From assembly GCA_021831685.1 (NCBI GenBank), contig JAKBMG010000175.1:62001-126000 (forward strand): 64,000 nt of DNA. Reading direction: 5' to 3'. The notes below the pieces were generated by a model. That model was given only the letters and a program-made list of their open reading frames with translations, made no database searches and was not told the origin of the DNA. This document shows, one piece after another, positions 5,403 to 32,145 of this stretch. Numbering within the stretch: position 1 is the first letter of the stretch; each line of letters opens with the position of its first letter. Source of the DNA: Bacteroidota bacterium. Its GTDB lineage: Bacteria > Bacteroidota > Ignavibacteria > Ignavibacteriales > Ignavibacteriaceae. The position numbers were made by a program, and so were the translations under genes.

Positions 5403-5685
5403 AAATCACTTCCCCGCATGCAATTTCATTTGTGAAGAAACTACTTTTGTTTTTTTCAATTATTGGAAATATATCAACAGCTATTTCTTTTGAAATATTC
5501 CTTATAAGCTTTCGATATTTTAATGCCAGTGTTAGATAATTATCTGAACTATTTTGTACCACAGCAATATCTATATCATTTGGCGAATCGCTTTGATTAA
5601 AAGAACCAAAAATTATAATCCTTTCGATTTCTTTTTGTTCTTTTAGCGAATCTACTATTCTATTTTTCAATTCAATTTTATTCAT
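5386..5685 (-). CDS. MNT-type nucleotidyltransferase (MntA-like antitoxin)
   Basis: 99 residues, a minimal nucleotidyltransferase fold. The motif GSFNQSDSPNDIDIAV (about residues 27-42) carries the G-S and the D.D metal ligands, and a later acidic residue sits in AVDIFPI. Such MNT proteins typically AMPylate and silence a HEPN ribonuclease encoded next to them. Here the HEPN gene begins 17 bp before this stop but is truncated, so the protein may be an orphan antitoxin or have taken on another role. The start ATG at 5685 is about 57 bp downstream of the 3' boundary of the group II intron-like remnant. Confidence 0.8.
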   Translation of the reverse strand: MNKIELKNRIVDSLKEQKEIERIIIFGSFNQSDSPNDIDIAVVQNSSDNYLTLALKYRKLIRNISKEIAVDIFPIIEKNKSSFFTNEIACGEVIYARGN

Positions 5686-5741
5686 GCTGCTTTTTCTTTT
5701 TACTTCTATAAATATAGAACAATGAATACTTATTTGCCACC

Positions 5742-5980
5742 GTCGTGGTAGGAACGCCAGTTACCCAGCGCCACACACAGGTCCCTGTGTGTAGTATTCG
5801 CACCGGTCTCCTCAGTGATACTCGCTTCCGCATTCCACAGCTCGAGTGAATTTAATCTCTCGTTCTGCTTTGTTTGTTTCTCTTTATACATGCTACACCT
5901 TATAACCACGATAGACCTTTAATAATCTCGCTTAGCGACTATTCAAGTGTTGGCTTCTGAACCGTTAATCCGCCGCGGAT
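5742..5980 (-). mobile_element. Group II intron-like remnant (3' part)
   Basis: Shares about 110 bp with the element at 7072-7559, including on the minus strand GGATTAACGGYTCAGAAGCC, GGTTATAAGGTGTAGCATGT and ATAAAGAGAA. TTAACGGCTCAGAAG is a recurring phrase of domain I in bacterial group II introns, and GTAGCATG could lead into the intron-encoded reverse transcriptase, which is absent. Both copies end CCTACCACRAC followed by GGY. This copy lacks the GTGCG 5' end. It abuts the attC core at 5981-5987. Confidence 0.5.
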
Positions 5981-6072
5981 ACTTAACAAAGCAACTTAAC
6001 ACGGGACAACAAAACCAATAATTACAAAAATGCCGAATGCGAATACGGCGTCCGCTTGATTGACGTTAGGCA
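5981..6072 (-). mobile_element. attC-like integron recombination site
   Basis: In the minus direction the site begins GCCTAAC (a perfect RYYYAAC, 6072-6066) immediately after the stop codon of the type IX-sorted protein, and ends GTTAAGT (a perfect GTTRRRY, 5987-5981). Internal pairing is imperfect. The arm GCCGAATGCGAATACGGCGT, then CCGCTTGA, closely resembles the arm of the site at 7560-7746. A short attC directly behind the ORF is the canonical gene-cassette layout. Confidence 0.65.
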
Positions 6073-7029
6073 TTACTTTAGAAGGATCATCTTTTTTGTC
6101 TGAATAACATTTCCATATCTTATTTGGTAAAAGTAAGTACCAGATGCTACTTGATTTCCAAAATTATTTTTACCATTCCATATATATTTAGAATCTCCCG
6201 GAGAGTCTTGATATTCACTAATATCTTTTATCAATTTACCTTGAATATCATATATGTTAATATTTACTTCACCGGAATGAGGAATATTATATTCTATGGT
6301 GGTAGAAGGATTAAAAGGATTAGGATAATTTTGCGCTAAATTAAACTTCATTGGAAGTTCACTCGGAGTAAGACTTACAGAAGTAATCAGAGTATCAAAA
6401 CTCAAATTATCAACATAAAGAATAGAATTACCTTGAGGGACAGTTTTTAAAGCCATTAACCATATCTGTGCACTATCTGAAGTTGTATAATTAGAAATGG
6501 GTAAATTAAAAGATGTCCAATTGGATACAGTCTCTGTAGAGTTTAAAAATGCACTAGCCACAGGGCTACCATTTTTGAATAAAACTAACCCTATTACTAG
6601 AGTATCATTATTCTGAGGTAAAAATTTGTAAAAGCCACGAAAACTTGTAGGATGTCCTGTTATAGGGAACGAAGGACCATTATATCCCAAGTAATGAGAA
6701 GTTAAAGGAGCTGTAGCTGTACTACCATAAGCAAGTCGCCAATAAGGATATGGTGATTCTGGATTTGAATTTACAAAAGAGATATTGTTTTCCAATCTTA
6801 TGGAATAAATGCCTACGTTTTGTGGGTAATGGTCTGACGATTTTGTTACTGCATTATATGTCACTCCTGATGGCTTTTCAACAAGATTATCAGTTACCCA
6901 TATACCGGATGGTATTTCAATTCCAGATGTGTCTGTTGTCCAATCTTCAAATCCATTATTTGGAATTTGCGCATTTGTCTTAATTGTCATTGCAATTGAA
7001 ACTGTCAGAATAATTGTAAACATTTTCAT
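6073..7029 (-). CDS. Secreted protein with type IX secretion C-terminal sorting domain
   Basis: 318 residues. Residues 1-20 form a signal peptide (ILTVSIAMTIKTNA). The mature part starts IPNNGFEDW and continues with P.GIWVTDN, resembling the carbohydrate-metabolism-like jelly-roll domain (PCMD) seen in Bacteroidota surface proteins. From about residue 232 the sequence NYPNPFNPSTTIEYNI, then NINIYDIQGKLI and GTYFYQIRYGN..QTKKMILLK, is a type A sorting domain for the Por/T9SS system. The product is therefore predicted to be exported and cell-surface attached or released. A ribosome site GTAGGAG precedes the ATG. The stop lies one base before an attC-like core, so this is a cassette gene. The ligand is unknown. 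Confidence 0.85.
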   Translation of the reverse strand: MKMFTIILTVSIAMTIKTNAQIPNNGFEDWTTDTSGIEIPSGIWVTDNLVEKPSGVTYNAVTKSSDHYPQNVGIYSIRLENNISFVNSNPESPYPYWRLAYGSTATAPLTSHYLGYNGPSFPITGHPTSFRGFYKFLPQNNDTLVIGLVLFKNGSPVASAFLNSTETVSNWTSFNLPISNYTTSDSAQIWLMALKTVPQGNSILYVDNLSFDTLITSVSLTPSELPMKFNLAQNYPNPFNPSTTIEYNIPHSGEVNINIYDIQGKLIKDISEYQDSPGDSKYIWNGKNNFGNQVASGTYFYQIRYGNVIQTKKMILLK

Positions 7030-7071
7030 TTTACTTTTCTCCTACTATATTTGTTTAAGGGCAATTGCGCC

Positions 7072-7559
7072 GTTGTGGTAGGCAAGCTCCCTGTATGCCT
7101 TCAGCTTGTCTTCTTTTAGTTGACTTAGCTTACCATTTCTTTCAATGGAACTTACAGGGTCTCTCAAGTTCTTGTATGCTTCTCTTTATACATGCTACAC
7201 CTTATAACCACGGTAGACCTTGAATAGTCTTGCATAACGATTATTTCCCGCTACGGGATTGGCTTCTGAGCCGTTAATCCGCCGCGGCGGATTGCCGTCT
7301 ACATACATCGCAATTTCCGAGGCTAAACCTGCCTTGCCGTCAGGCAGGTTGGTTCCAGGAAGTGCGGTCTTCCTTACAACTTGTCCCGACTGTTTTTTGT
7401 CGGGAGCCTATATAATTCCCTGTGCACGCTTCATGTATTTCGTTCGTTCTGTTTTAATGAACTCCTCGATACATGCAACACTCGGTATGAGTGCACTGCT
7501 AATACTTACCCAATAGAGACTTTCACTCTATAAGAAGCATCAAGCTTCGCTTGACGCAC
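7072..7559 (-). mobile_element. Internally deleted group II intron-like element inserted in an attC core
   Basis: Read on the minus strand it opens GTGCGTCAAGC, then a hairpin TAGAGTGAAAGTCTCTA, as bacterial group II introns do (GTGYG 5' end and a stem-GTGAAAGTC-stem element). Further in comes TTAACGGCTCAGAAGCC and GTAGCATG, and the element ends CCTACCACAAC. The flanks are CGTTA on the left and GGC on the right, so removing the element would restore GTTAGGC, a perfect attC R' core. At 488 bp, with no reverse transcriptase and no clear domain V, it is defective. Group IIC-attC introns are known to target attC sites; the class here is inferred. Confidence 0.55.
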
Positions 7560-7746
7560 TAACGATATCGCTAAGGCGCAGCCCCAAACTACACTGCCAA
7601 ACTTGTTAATAAATTTTAGAACTAGAAAAATCTTTCATAGCACGACTACCTTGAACAAGAAACTTGCATCGGAACGACTAACTCTAAAATTTGTAAAAGG
7701 CCGAATGCGAAAACGCTGTCGCCTTGAGCCACTTGTTACGTTGTGC
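7560..7746 (-). mobile_element. attC-like integron recombination site interrupted by the intron-like element
   Basis: The minus strand starts GCACAACGTAACAAGTGGCTC, then AAGGCG.CAGCG, and its far arm is the near-complement (CGCTAAGGCGCAGC on the plus strand, 7569-7582). A second inner stem pairs AATTTTAGA with TCTAAAATT. The right end breaks at CGTTA, where the intron-like element begins. It lies 7 bp past the stop codon of the 7753-8358 barrel gene. Confidence 0.65.
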
Positions 7747-7752
7747 TCTTTT

Positions 7753-8358
7753 TTATTTAATAATGAAATAGTTTATCCTAAAGCCTATCGAAAAAGTATT
7801 AGTATTCTGGTTGGGTTTATTATAAGTACTTAATGAATAGGATAAAAATGGTTCTAATGCAACACTGTTTGAAAGAAAATAATTTATTCCACCTACTGCA
7901 GTAAAAATATTTCCTTCTTGTTTAGAATTAATATTTTTTGAATAAAACTCACTTATTCCTAAGAAAGGTACAATAATATTGCCGCTAAAATAGTATCTGA
8001 TGCTCGGTCCAATTCCAAAATTTCTGGATATACTTTTAGGAAATACTAAACTAGGGTTAGTAGTATTTGAAAGAGAATATTCTGTCTCTGCATAATAGTA
8101 AGAAATACTACCACCGATTGATAAATTATTCATAATAAAATAGCTAAAAGATGGTGTCATTGAAATATAAGTCTCTTTGATATTGGCTGTACCCGAATTA
8201 TAATATGGTTCATTCGAAGAACTCGTACTTTTTGAATATGAATACGATATACTCCCCGATAGATTATATACACCTTTCTTTAAAGCATCTTGTGGAAACA
8301 AGGGTGAATTATAGAAAAGTGAAAAAATAACTAAGAAAAAAACTTTATAAATTTTCAC
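7753..8358 (-). CDS. Outer-membrane beta-barrel protein
   Basis: 201 residues with a signal peptide (FFLVIFSLFYNSPLFPQ). The rest is alternating amphipathic strands rich in Ser, Tyr, Gly and Phe: NLSGSISYSYSKS, YISMTPSFSYFIMN, LSIGGSISYYYAE, and the last strand TFSIGFRINYFIIK. This is the pattern of small eight-stranded barrels, and the layout matches the 23678-24280 protein in the other island. It is 22 bp downstream of the clostripain-type gene on the same strand, so the two probably form one transcript and one cassette. Function beyond an outer-membrane location is unknown. Confidence 0.75.
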   Translation of the reverse strand: MKIYKVFFLVIFSLFYNSPLFPQDALKKGVYNLSGSISYSYSKSTSSSNEPYYNSGTANIKETYISMTPSFSYFIMNNLSIGGSISYYYAETEYSLSNTTNPSLVFPKSISRNFGIGPSIRYYFSGNIIVPFLGISEFYSKNINSKQEGNIFTAVGGINYFLSNSVALEPFLSYSLSTYNKPNQNTNTFSIGFRINYFIIK

Positions 8359-8380
8359 TAAATCCTCCTAATTAATTATC

Positions 8381-9637
8381 TTAATGATTATAAGTTGTAT
8401 AGAAACCATTAAACTTGTAAATATTAGTAAGAATATCTTTTCTTGGACTTATACTACTTTTTCGAAGAACGCTTACGAGAAGTGCATCCCAGCTGCAATT
8501 ATTTTTAAAATCAAGCGGGTCATTATTAGATGAATAATAAATATCTGTAAACTCATTTACTGATGGAAAGTAAATATTAAGTCCATAGGAACCCGCATTG
8601 GATGTTCCATGACATTCATCAACAATACAATCATTAAAATAATTCATAGCATTTTCTATAGTTTTTATGACTGCGGTATCGGTTTCATTAGTGCGCATTA
8701 CCCTTAATAAATCATATACATCGCAGAAACCCCCGTAGTTTTTTATTCCATGTTTTTTAATACTCCGAAAACTATTAATATTTTGATTGTAATAATCTGT
8801 GACTTCGTTGAAAGCTGAAACAAAGTTCTCTATTTTAGATAGATTAACTGCGCTCATAGTAATCTGTTCTCCACCATAAGGATTATTGTTCCTAGTTTCA
8901 TAGAGTAGAGAAATTGTTTTTTTCGATAAATCTTCAGTGGAGATTAAAGGATTGCTTTTAATAAAGTCATCAAATTTATTAAGCATATTATCCCAATAAA
9001 CATAACCGCTAACATCTTCACTGGCTATATAATATTTAGCTGAGTTTCTTACTTGATATTCTGTTTCTAAAGATCCCATTAAGCATGGTGCAGTAAAAAG
9101 TACTAAATCCATTCCACCAGCATTTTTAAATGCATTATCTATTTCAAAAGGTTTAAGATCATCGCTTATACCTTTGTATACATTTCCACAAGTTCCATCC
9201 CAACCACCTCCATGGTCATAAAAAGCTACAATATATCTTTTAGCCGGAAAATATTTTTTTGCTGCTTTAATAAAATCAGTAAGTGTCCTTTCATCCCCAA
9301 CATTTATATCCCCAAGTTTTTGTAATAGATTTTGTTCATGATTTTCCCCTATTATATAAAAAGATGCTTCAGAATTACTTCCGTCTCTTAACACAAAATA
9401 ATTTATATCCTTATTTGAGGAAACTGACTTTGAAAAATCGTTTAGAGGATCATAGGCACCTTCGCCCCAATCAGCGTCATCGTAAAGAAGGAATGTCCAT
9501 TCTTTTTCAGGTGAAGGAATAATTGATAAAACTGTATCTATAGAATTTCCTTTAACCTGACTTGGCATTTCAATTTTCTTACATGAAAAAAATGCGAGAG
9601 ATAATATAATTACGAAAAAAAAAATAACTTTATTCAT
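8381..9637 (-). CDS. Clostripain-family (C11) cysteine peptidase, lipoprotein
   Basis: 418 residues. The N-terminus FFFVIILSLAFFSC gives a lipobox Cys19. The start of the domain, EWTFLLYDDADW, is typical of family C11. The catalytic His142 is in AFYDHGGGW and the nucleophile Cys185 in LFTAPCLMGSLE, matching the H...C dyad of clostripain-like enzymes. The family usually reads D-A-C-LMG; here it is A-P-C-LMG, a small deviation. A surface-anchored peptidase cleaving after basic residues would be the family expectation; substrate specificity cannot be read. Its barrel neighbour downstream could be a partner or export companion (inference). Confidence 0.85.
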   Translation of the reverse strand: MNKVIFFFVIILSLAFFSCKKIEMPSQVKGNSIDTVLSIIPSPEKEWTFLLYDDADWGEGAYDPLNDFSKSVSSNKDINYFVLRDGSNSEASFYIIGENHEQNLLQKLGDINVGDERTLTDFIKAAKKYFPAKRYIVAFYDHGGGWDGTCGNVYKGISDDLKPFEIDNAFKNAGGMDLVLFTAPCLMGSLETEYQVRNSAKYYIASEDVSGYVYWDNMLNKFDDFIKSNPLISTEDLSKKTISLLYETRNNNPYGGEQITMSAVNLSKIENFVSAFNEVTDYYNQNINSFRSIKKHGIKNYGGFCDVYDLLRVMRTNETDTAVIKTIENAMNYFNDCIVDECHGTSNAGSYGLNIYFPSVNEFTDIYYSSNNDPLDFKNNCSWDALLVSVLRKSSISPRKDILTNIYKFNGFYTTYNH

Positions 9638-9752: not shown

Positions 9753-9942
9753 ACATAACGTTGTTGCAACTAACTTGCCGCCCCGAACAAACGGCTAAGG
9801 TAAAACGATAACGCCAATAATTCAGAAAATATTTCATAACTAAATAAACTTAAACAACAATGTTAAACGAAAAACGCAAAGCTAAGATTAGTAACAAAGC
9901 CGCATCGCGATAGGCGGTCAAGTTGAGTTGCGGGTTATATGT
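9753..9942 (-). mobile_element. attC-like integron recombination site
   Basis: A long imperfect inverted repeat: the plus strand starts CATAACGTTGTTGCAACTAAC, then TTGCCGCC, and ends GGCGGTCAAGTTGAGTTGCG, then GGTTATATG. The arms match as complements with extra bases on one side, a hallmark of attC sites. In the minus direction the site starts ACATATAAC, five bases after the stop of the 9947-10699 gene. At 190 bp it is at the long end of the attC range. Confidence 0.7.
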
Positions 9943-31967: not shown

Positions 31968-32052
31968 AATAACTTAATACATGTTAGATTTTAATATTTT
32001 TTTATTTGTAAAAAATTATAGAGGGAAAAAAGTGAAGCAAAAGTTTGTGTGA

Positions 32053-32145
32053 CTTATTTCCTACGATAGTATTATCTACATCAGGTTCAGAGAGTGTAAT
32101 CTCAGCCTCCCAATTATATTTAGGAAGCACCTCTATAAGTTTCTA
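32053..32145 (-). promoter_or_regulatory. TPP (THI-box) riboswitch
   Basis: In the minus direction the conserved elements appear in order: P1 strand ACTTAT, AGAGGTGC, GGGAGGCTGAGATTACAC (the CUGAGA pyrimidine-sensor core), CTCTGAACCTGATGTAGATA, then ATACTATCGTAGGAAATAAGT closing P1. ACCTGAT..GATAAT..CGTAGG is diagnostic for the thiamine pyrophosphate aptamer. It lies 86 bp upstream of thiS, so it should turn off the whole thi operon when TPP is present. The expression platform is not resolved. Confidence 0.97.

Follow-up and report, generated by a model that had tools for sequence, protein, structure and literature searches.

Decayed group II introns at attC sites of an Ignavibacteriaceae genome point to a widespread, apparently undescribed attC-targeting lineage outside class C

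Group II introns of the IIC-attC type (S.ma.I2 and relatives), with class C RNA and reverse transcriptase (RT), insert into the bottom strand of attC, in the R'' box at TTGT/T, and lie antisense to the cassettes (PMC7923331). A 2015 review gave class C as the lineage that targets attC, and as the one bacterial intron lineage that does not use homing sites (PMC4424553). Integron-associated introns of class E or IIB have been reported as single cases, without a common target site, an EBS1 rule or a lineage (PMC7923331, PMC9229058). Among the non-IIC introns of integrons or CALINs, UHB.I2 lies in sense orientation directly after an attC and has 5'-UUGCG ends, a CL1 RT and no conserved exons, and the H.ha.F1 and H.ha.F2 copies are 5'-truncated (PMC7923331); S. 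putrefaciens 200 and S. saliphila JCM 32304 are reported to have CL1 and class E introns in their integrons (PMC9229058). An intron of an Enterobacter cloacae integron, so far as it is described where cited in PMC7923331, sits in the attC top strand in cassette orientation, belongs to class IIC and is a single case.

In this study, we provide evidence that two elements in the genome of a Bacteroidota bacterium (Ignavibacteriaceae) are decayed, ORF-less members of a widespread, mobile non-IIC lineage specialised on attC, putatively by pairing of EBS1 with CGUUA and by reverse splicing into the top strand, a reading to which we give a probability of about 0.8. These introns resemble the IIC-attC introns in their putative mobility, endonuclease-less RT, attC target, short IBS1 and lack of IBS2, but differ in their RNA (RF02005), their non-class-C RT, their insertion in the top strand at CGTTA/NRY of R' and their sense orientation. 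Strand and orientation are shared with the Enterobacter intron, from which they differ in class; the position after attC is shared with UHB.I2, from which they differ in 5' end, RT and exons, and the truncation of the H.ha copies likewise sets these apart. S. saliphila JCM 32304 is itself one host of the lineage. In the literature searched, the nearest precedents are isolated cases of class E, CL1 or IIC, and both the non-IIC attC-targeting lineage and its target rule are apparently new.

Intron copies in the cassette array

The window (the whole stretch of 64,000 nucleotides that was analysed) holds two intron copies (Table 1). Read on the minus strand, copy 1 occupies exactly 7559-7072 as CGATATCGTTA / GTGCGTCAAGC...TTGCCTACCACAAC / GGCGC, and joining its flanks restores GTTAGGC, the R' box of an attC being split as GTTA/intron/GGC. 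The GTGCG start and the rejoined R' core noticed in a sequence-only reading of this DNA are thus borne out, and the Rfam search which that reading had suggested for its group II intron-like element returned group-II-D1D4-6 (RF02005) at 57.2 bits and E 2e-13. The ends of the element, GTGCG...AC, agree with the group II 5' end GUGYG and 3' end AY. The interrupted attC scores 9.8, spans 179 nt from TAAC to GTTA, has the L''/L' arms and lies in the same orientation as the intact attC at 9940-9753; attCs of a similar kind, 179-184 nt long, lie on contig C160 and beside an integron integrase gene on contig C111 of this genome, and in a congener (G012). Cassette ORFs and copy 1 are on one strand. Copy 1 bears both marks of the lineage proposed here, insertion after the GTTA of R' and an EBS1 of UAACG: its exon ends in CGTTA, its loop reads UAACG and the attC before it is a scored one.

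Table 1. Coordinates of the intron copies and of the surrounding array in the window.
Feature	Position	Strand	Description
Copy 1, group II intron	7072..7559	-	full 5' end GTGCG, domains I-III, no ORF, 3' end CCTACCACAAC
Copy 1, deletion	within 7072..7559	-	domains IV-V and most of VI gone
Copy 1, domain I to IV core	7198..7523	-	RF02005 match, 57.2 bits
Copy 1, EBS1 UAACG in domain I hairpin loop	7272..7276	-	complement of 5' exon end CGUUA
attC interrupted by copy 1	7560..7741	-	R'' ACGTAAC 7741-7735; first four bases of R', GTTA, 7563-7560
Rest of R' (GGC), 3' exon of copy 1 and start of next cassette	7069..7071	-	sequence read
Upstream attC, same array, intact	9753..9940	-	R'' ATATAAC, R' GTTATGT, score 10.8
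Cassette ORF downstream of copy 1	6073..7029	-	type IX secretion sorting domain
Upstream cassette ORFs	7753..9637	-	8381-9637 clostripain-family peptidase; 7753-8358 no family
Copy 2, group II intron	5742..~5975	-	deleted at the 5' side; retains some of domain I, a degenerate domain V and domain VI; 3' end CCTACCACGAC, then GGT
Copy 2, degenerate domain V GAGACCGGTGCGAATACTACACACAGGGACCTG	5778..5810	-	aligned by eye to intact GAGCCCGGTGCGGTAATACTGCACGCCGGGATCTG
Second attC, left half	5976..6071	-	R'' GCCTAAC 6071-6065; cut mid-site by the deletion that removed the 5' part of copy 2

Copy 1 is a dead remnant of a group II intron and not a functional intron; domain V is absent and domain VI mostly absent, both being present in the relatives, and RF00029 gave no match at E<=5 across 5600-7800. 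Copy 1 has no ORF. The description of the window copies as RT-less and inactive stands, and both would be immobile. Copy 2 matches RF02005 below threshold (18.6 bits). The attC preceding it halts in its middle and runs straight into domain I, its 5' junction is therefore a deletion, and a 5'-truncated retrotransposition product at R' was rejected for the same reason. The sequence-only reading was right about the 3' end of this copy and the GGT that follows, but the 5' end of the copy is a deletion breakpoint, and the GTTA preceding it stands mid-site in a truncated attC; likewise, the lack of a clear domain V holds for copy 1 and not for copy 2, in which a degenerate domain V (5810-5778) and domain VI remain.

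Another 5'-intact copy in the same genome, on contig C86, matches RF02005 at 121.6 bits, and there are further copies in this genome and three in the congener, every 5'-intact one following a GTTA or GCTA that ends an attC-like palindrome. Given these copies, the location of copy 1 follows a pattern beyond chance. The domain IV/V deletion of copy 1 is apparently common to the copies on C86 (3263-3703) and C160, suggesting spread or conversion of dead copies through recombination. Contigs C86 and C160 start inside intron copies and two contigs of the congener break inside copies, thus copy number is underestimated. Short palindromic repeats, AATCCGCCGCGGCGGATT and CCTGCC...GGCAGG, were seen in or at the ends of intron copies (window 7262-7350; L002 1494-1503). 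Elsewhere in the window, at 32041-32144 on the minus strand, lies a TPP riboswitch (RF00059, 70 bits).

RNA family and reverse transcriptase

A complete-looking IIC-type intron with RT is present in the same genome (G000 contig C16; L021 6530-4690, minus strand). Its RNA matches RF02001 and RF01998, whereas that of the attC introns matches RF02005, RT-bearing relatives doing so at 69-118 bits. The RT of the IIC-type intron scored 391 bits against the GsI-IIC RT structure, and the attC-intron RT of Shewanella saliphila (L116) scored 148 bits to GsI-IIC, 139 to 6me0 and 138 to LtrA, and is therefore not class C. Twelve RTs of intact copies, among them that of S. saliphila JCM 32304 (L116), form one clade with support 100/100, separate from the RTs of same-genus RF02005 introns elsewhere and from the IIC RT. 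The clade RTs have an RVT_1 domain, match GIIM weakly and show no endonuclease domain. The lineage is non-IIC and IIB-like, its RT probably being of class E according to one strain-level report (PMC9229058) assigned to L116 by name order.

Three RF02005 introns of the same genus located outside attC (C171 of this genome, C113 of G012 and C123 of G008) belong to the same domain I family and have related RTs, but they are not at attC and their RTs fall outside the attC clade. The EBS1 loop of the C171 intron, AGGAAU, matches its own exon AUCCCU at 5/6 bases by inspection; with a different EBS1 loop and an RT outside the clade, this intron was rejected as parent of the window copies.

The sequence-only reading had implied the group IIC-attC class for these elements. 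A relic of that class, inserted in the attC bottom strand by way of the hairpin and TTGT/T, would agree with the attC location, the stem-loop beside the site, the short IBS1 and the absence of an IBS2 motif, but the RNA is RF02005 and not RF02001 or RF01998, the RT is not class C, the insertion lies in the top strand, in sense and two bases further on (GTTA/NRY), and EBS1 UAACG suits CGUUA and not UUGU. The class is thus discarded on RNA type, RT, strand, position and orientation, and such a relic is scarcely credible here.

Target site and hosts of the lineage

An exact scan of a genome collection with GTTAGTGCGYCAAGCRAAGC, its matches preselected on GTTA, recovered the junction GTTA/GTGCGYCAAGCRAAGC in at least 117 stretches from more than 10 phyla, about 2 being expected from base counts by our own estimate. 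Hosts among the matches listed are chiefly Pseudomonadota (71 loci) and Bacillota (20), beside Myxococcota, Thermodesulfobacteriota, Bacteroidota, Nitrospinota, Nitrospirota, Chloroflexota, Acidobacteriota and others, and many of the matches listed have plain top-strand-oriented attCs upstream. Viral contigs scanned with GTGCGTCAAGCRAAGCTTG gave no match, and plasmids searched with the L116 RT gave nothing at >=60% identity. Apparently this is a widespread and undescribed lineage of attC-targeting introns, the window copy being an ordinary relic that points to it.

Insertions were collected by a flank-free search of 48 genomes, picked for at least one GTTA copy, together with the scan loci; 120 of these 132 follow GTTA, the others mostly GTTG, GCTA, ATTA, CTTA or GTTT. 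A sample unselected on the flank (395 genomes of one order, yielding five further genomes with 10 events at 9 distinct sites) had 8 of 9 sites after CGTTA, about six of the nine being attC by score or inspection. An attC score of at least 7 was reached by 47% of 130 sites; the share was 2.5% for shuffles and 7.6% for CGTTA sites within these attC-rich loci. The score is home-made and overlooks long attCs, that preceding the C86 copy among them, thus 47% is a lower bound. Two features outside the search pattern extend the rule: C occupies position -5 at 89% of 117 non-redundant sites, and in the 3' exons of 25 copies R stands at +2 in 22 and Y at +3 in 22 (NRY), so that GTTA and 3' exon together restore GTTANRY, near the R' consensus GTTRRRY. 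No IBS2 motif was found in the 117 non-redundant sites (at most 0.23 bit per position upstream of -7). The introns of the relatives end in CCTACC..GAY.

The complement of the 5' exon end CGUUA lies within the intron. UAACG occurs within nt 150-360 in 53 of 88 copies, compared with 12.5% in shuffles, and in the same RF02005 hairpin loop. Ferrimonas copies with the exon GCTGTTA or GCTGCTA have UAACAG in the EBS1 loop, a compensatory change. In the attCs of the present genus the bottom-strand R'' ends are mostly TTGTTA, TGGTTA or GGGTTA and R' is mostly CGTTA, thus UAACG would select R'. Insertions occupy the top strand of attC and run in the same direction as the cassettes.

The sequence-only reading named full-length relatives in non-attC contexts as what would refute it, and this applies in part: some relatives, among them most copies in Rheinheimera baltica, stand after CGTTA away from any recognisable attC. 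About half of all sites are not scored as attC, and many, such as those in R. baltica, are clearly in genes, thus CGTTA can suffice. A universal short hairpin directly upstream of the insertion was unsupported at sites with low attC score. These observations would fit an intron that simply targets CGTTA and does not recognise attC as such, the enrichment arising through an R' that supplies CGTTA, through tolerant arrays and through single-stranded, folded attC. A genome, however, contains CGTTA in the thousands and attC in the tens, yet nearly half of the sites or more are attC, as are some two thirds in the flank-free sample, and an attC score is reached by few of the CGTTA sites within the same attC-rich loci. 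We regard simple CGTTA targeting as rather unlikely, though still to be reckoned with.

A single entry into attC, followed by spread through cassette shuffling or homologous recombination, was also considered. The apparently shared deletion that removes domain V from copies at different sites of this genome, where dead copies were probably spread or converted, agrees with it, as does the place of the intron at the 5' end of a cassette, where the integrase could carry it. Both flanks differ among copies, however, diverged introns in many phyla use the same target, EBS1 complements the exon with a compensatory change in Ferrimonas, and copies outside integrons still follow CGTTA; this course is highly improbable as a general explanation.

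Several observations concern particular hosts. R. baltica (G108, L195-L204) has at least 11 lineage copies, most of them after xCGTTA within genes and not attC, and its contigs stop inside intron copies, indicating a high-copy repeat there. In L081 (1451, plus strand) and L128, the lineage intron seemingly has a further group II intron nested in it, whose RT belongs to another class. Clostridia loci (L075 at 4445 and 5310, plus strand; L091 at 7416, 5583 and 3168, minus strand; L113, L164, L051, L066, L068, L093 and L162) have attC-like sites with the same introns; L075 and L091 each have two or more such sites, and several of the sites share the central motif AATATGAATGTAGTA. L075 also encodes two tyrosine recombinases that the integron integrase model scores at 214 and 189 bits, short of its 265-bit cut-off. 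Integron-like systems in Bacillota are possible on the basis of these loci. Related introns of the form GTGCGCCAAGC..AAGCT[GA] in Gammaproteobacteria MAGs (L217-L219, L221, L249) have another fixed 5' exon, CACCCA or AACCCA.

Proposed mechanism and its meaning for integrons

We propose that attC-specific insertion proceeds as follows. The EBS1 loop UAACG would pair with CGUUA, that is, the base before R' plus GTTA, at the 3' end of attC, and the intron RNA would reverse-splice into the top strand of a single-stranded or folded attC, after GTTA. The endonuclease-less RT would then copy the intron, putatively with priming at the replication fork, as in other endonuclease-less introns (PMC7923331). 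The intron would come to lie in sense orientation at the 5' edge of the following cassette, and splicing could remove it from the transcript of that cassette. The insertion keeps GTTA, now before GTG, thus the intruded attC may still recombine, in which case the intron would move along as the 5' portion of the following cassette.

Tentatively, we consider it possible that the introns form a second integron-parasitic lineage in many phyla, independent of IIC-attC, in which CGTTA is read by EBS1 alone, the folded attC takes the place of IBS2, the intron serves as a spliceable 5' leader and the retained GTTA lets the integrase still move cassette and intron together.

The same niche, the integron attC, would in this lineage have been reached by a different ribozyme class, on the other strand, in the other orientation and with a target rule contained in five bases. 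The lineage makes the shift from homing-site to structure-linked targeting directly testable, and the intron may serve as a marker for unrecognised integrons, including the attC-like arrays in Clostridia. Cassette transcripts of many environmental bacteria may carry a sense-oriented intron.
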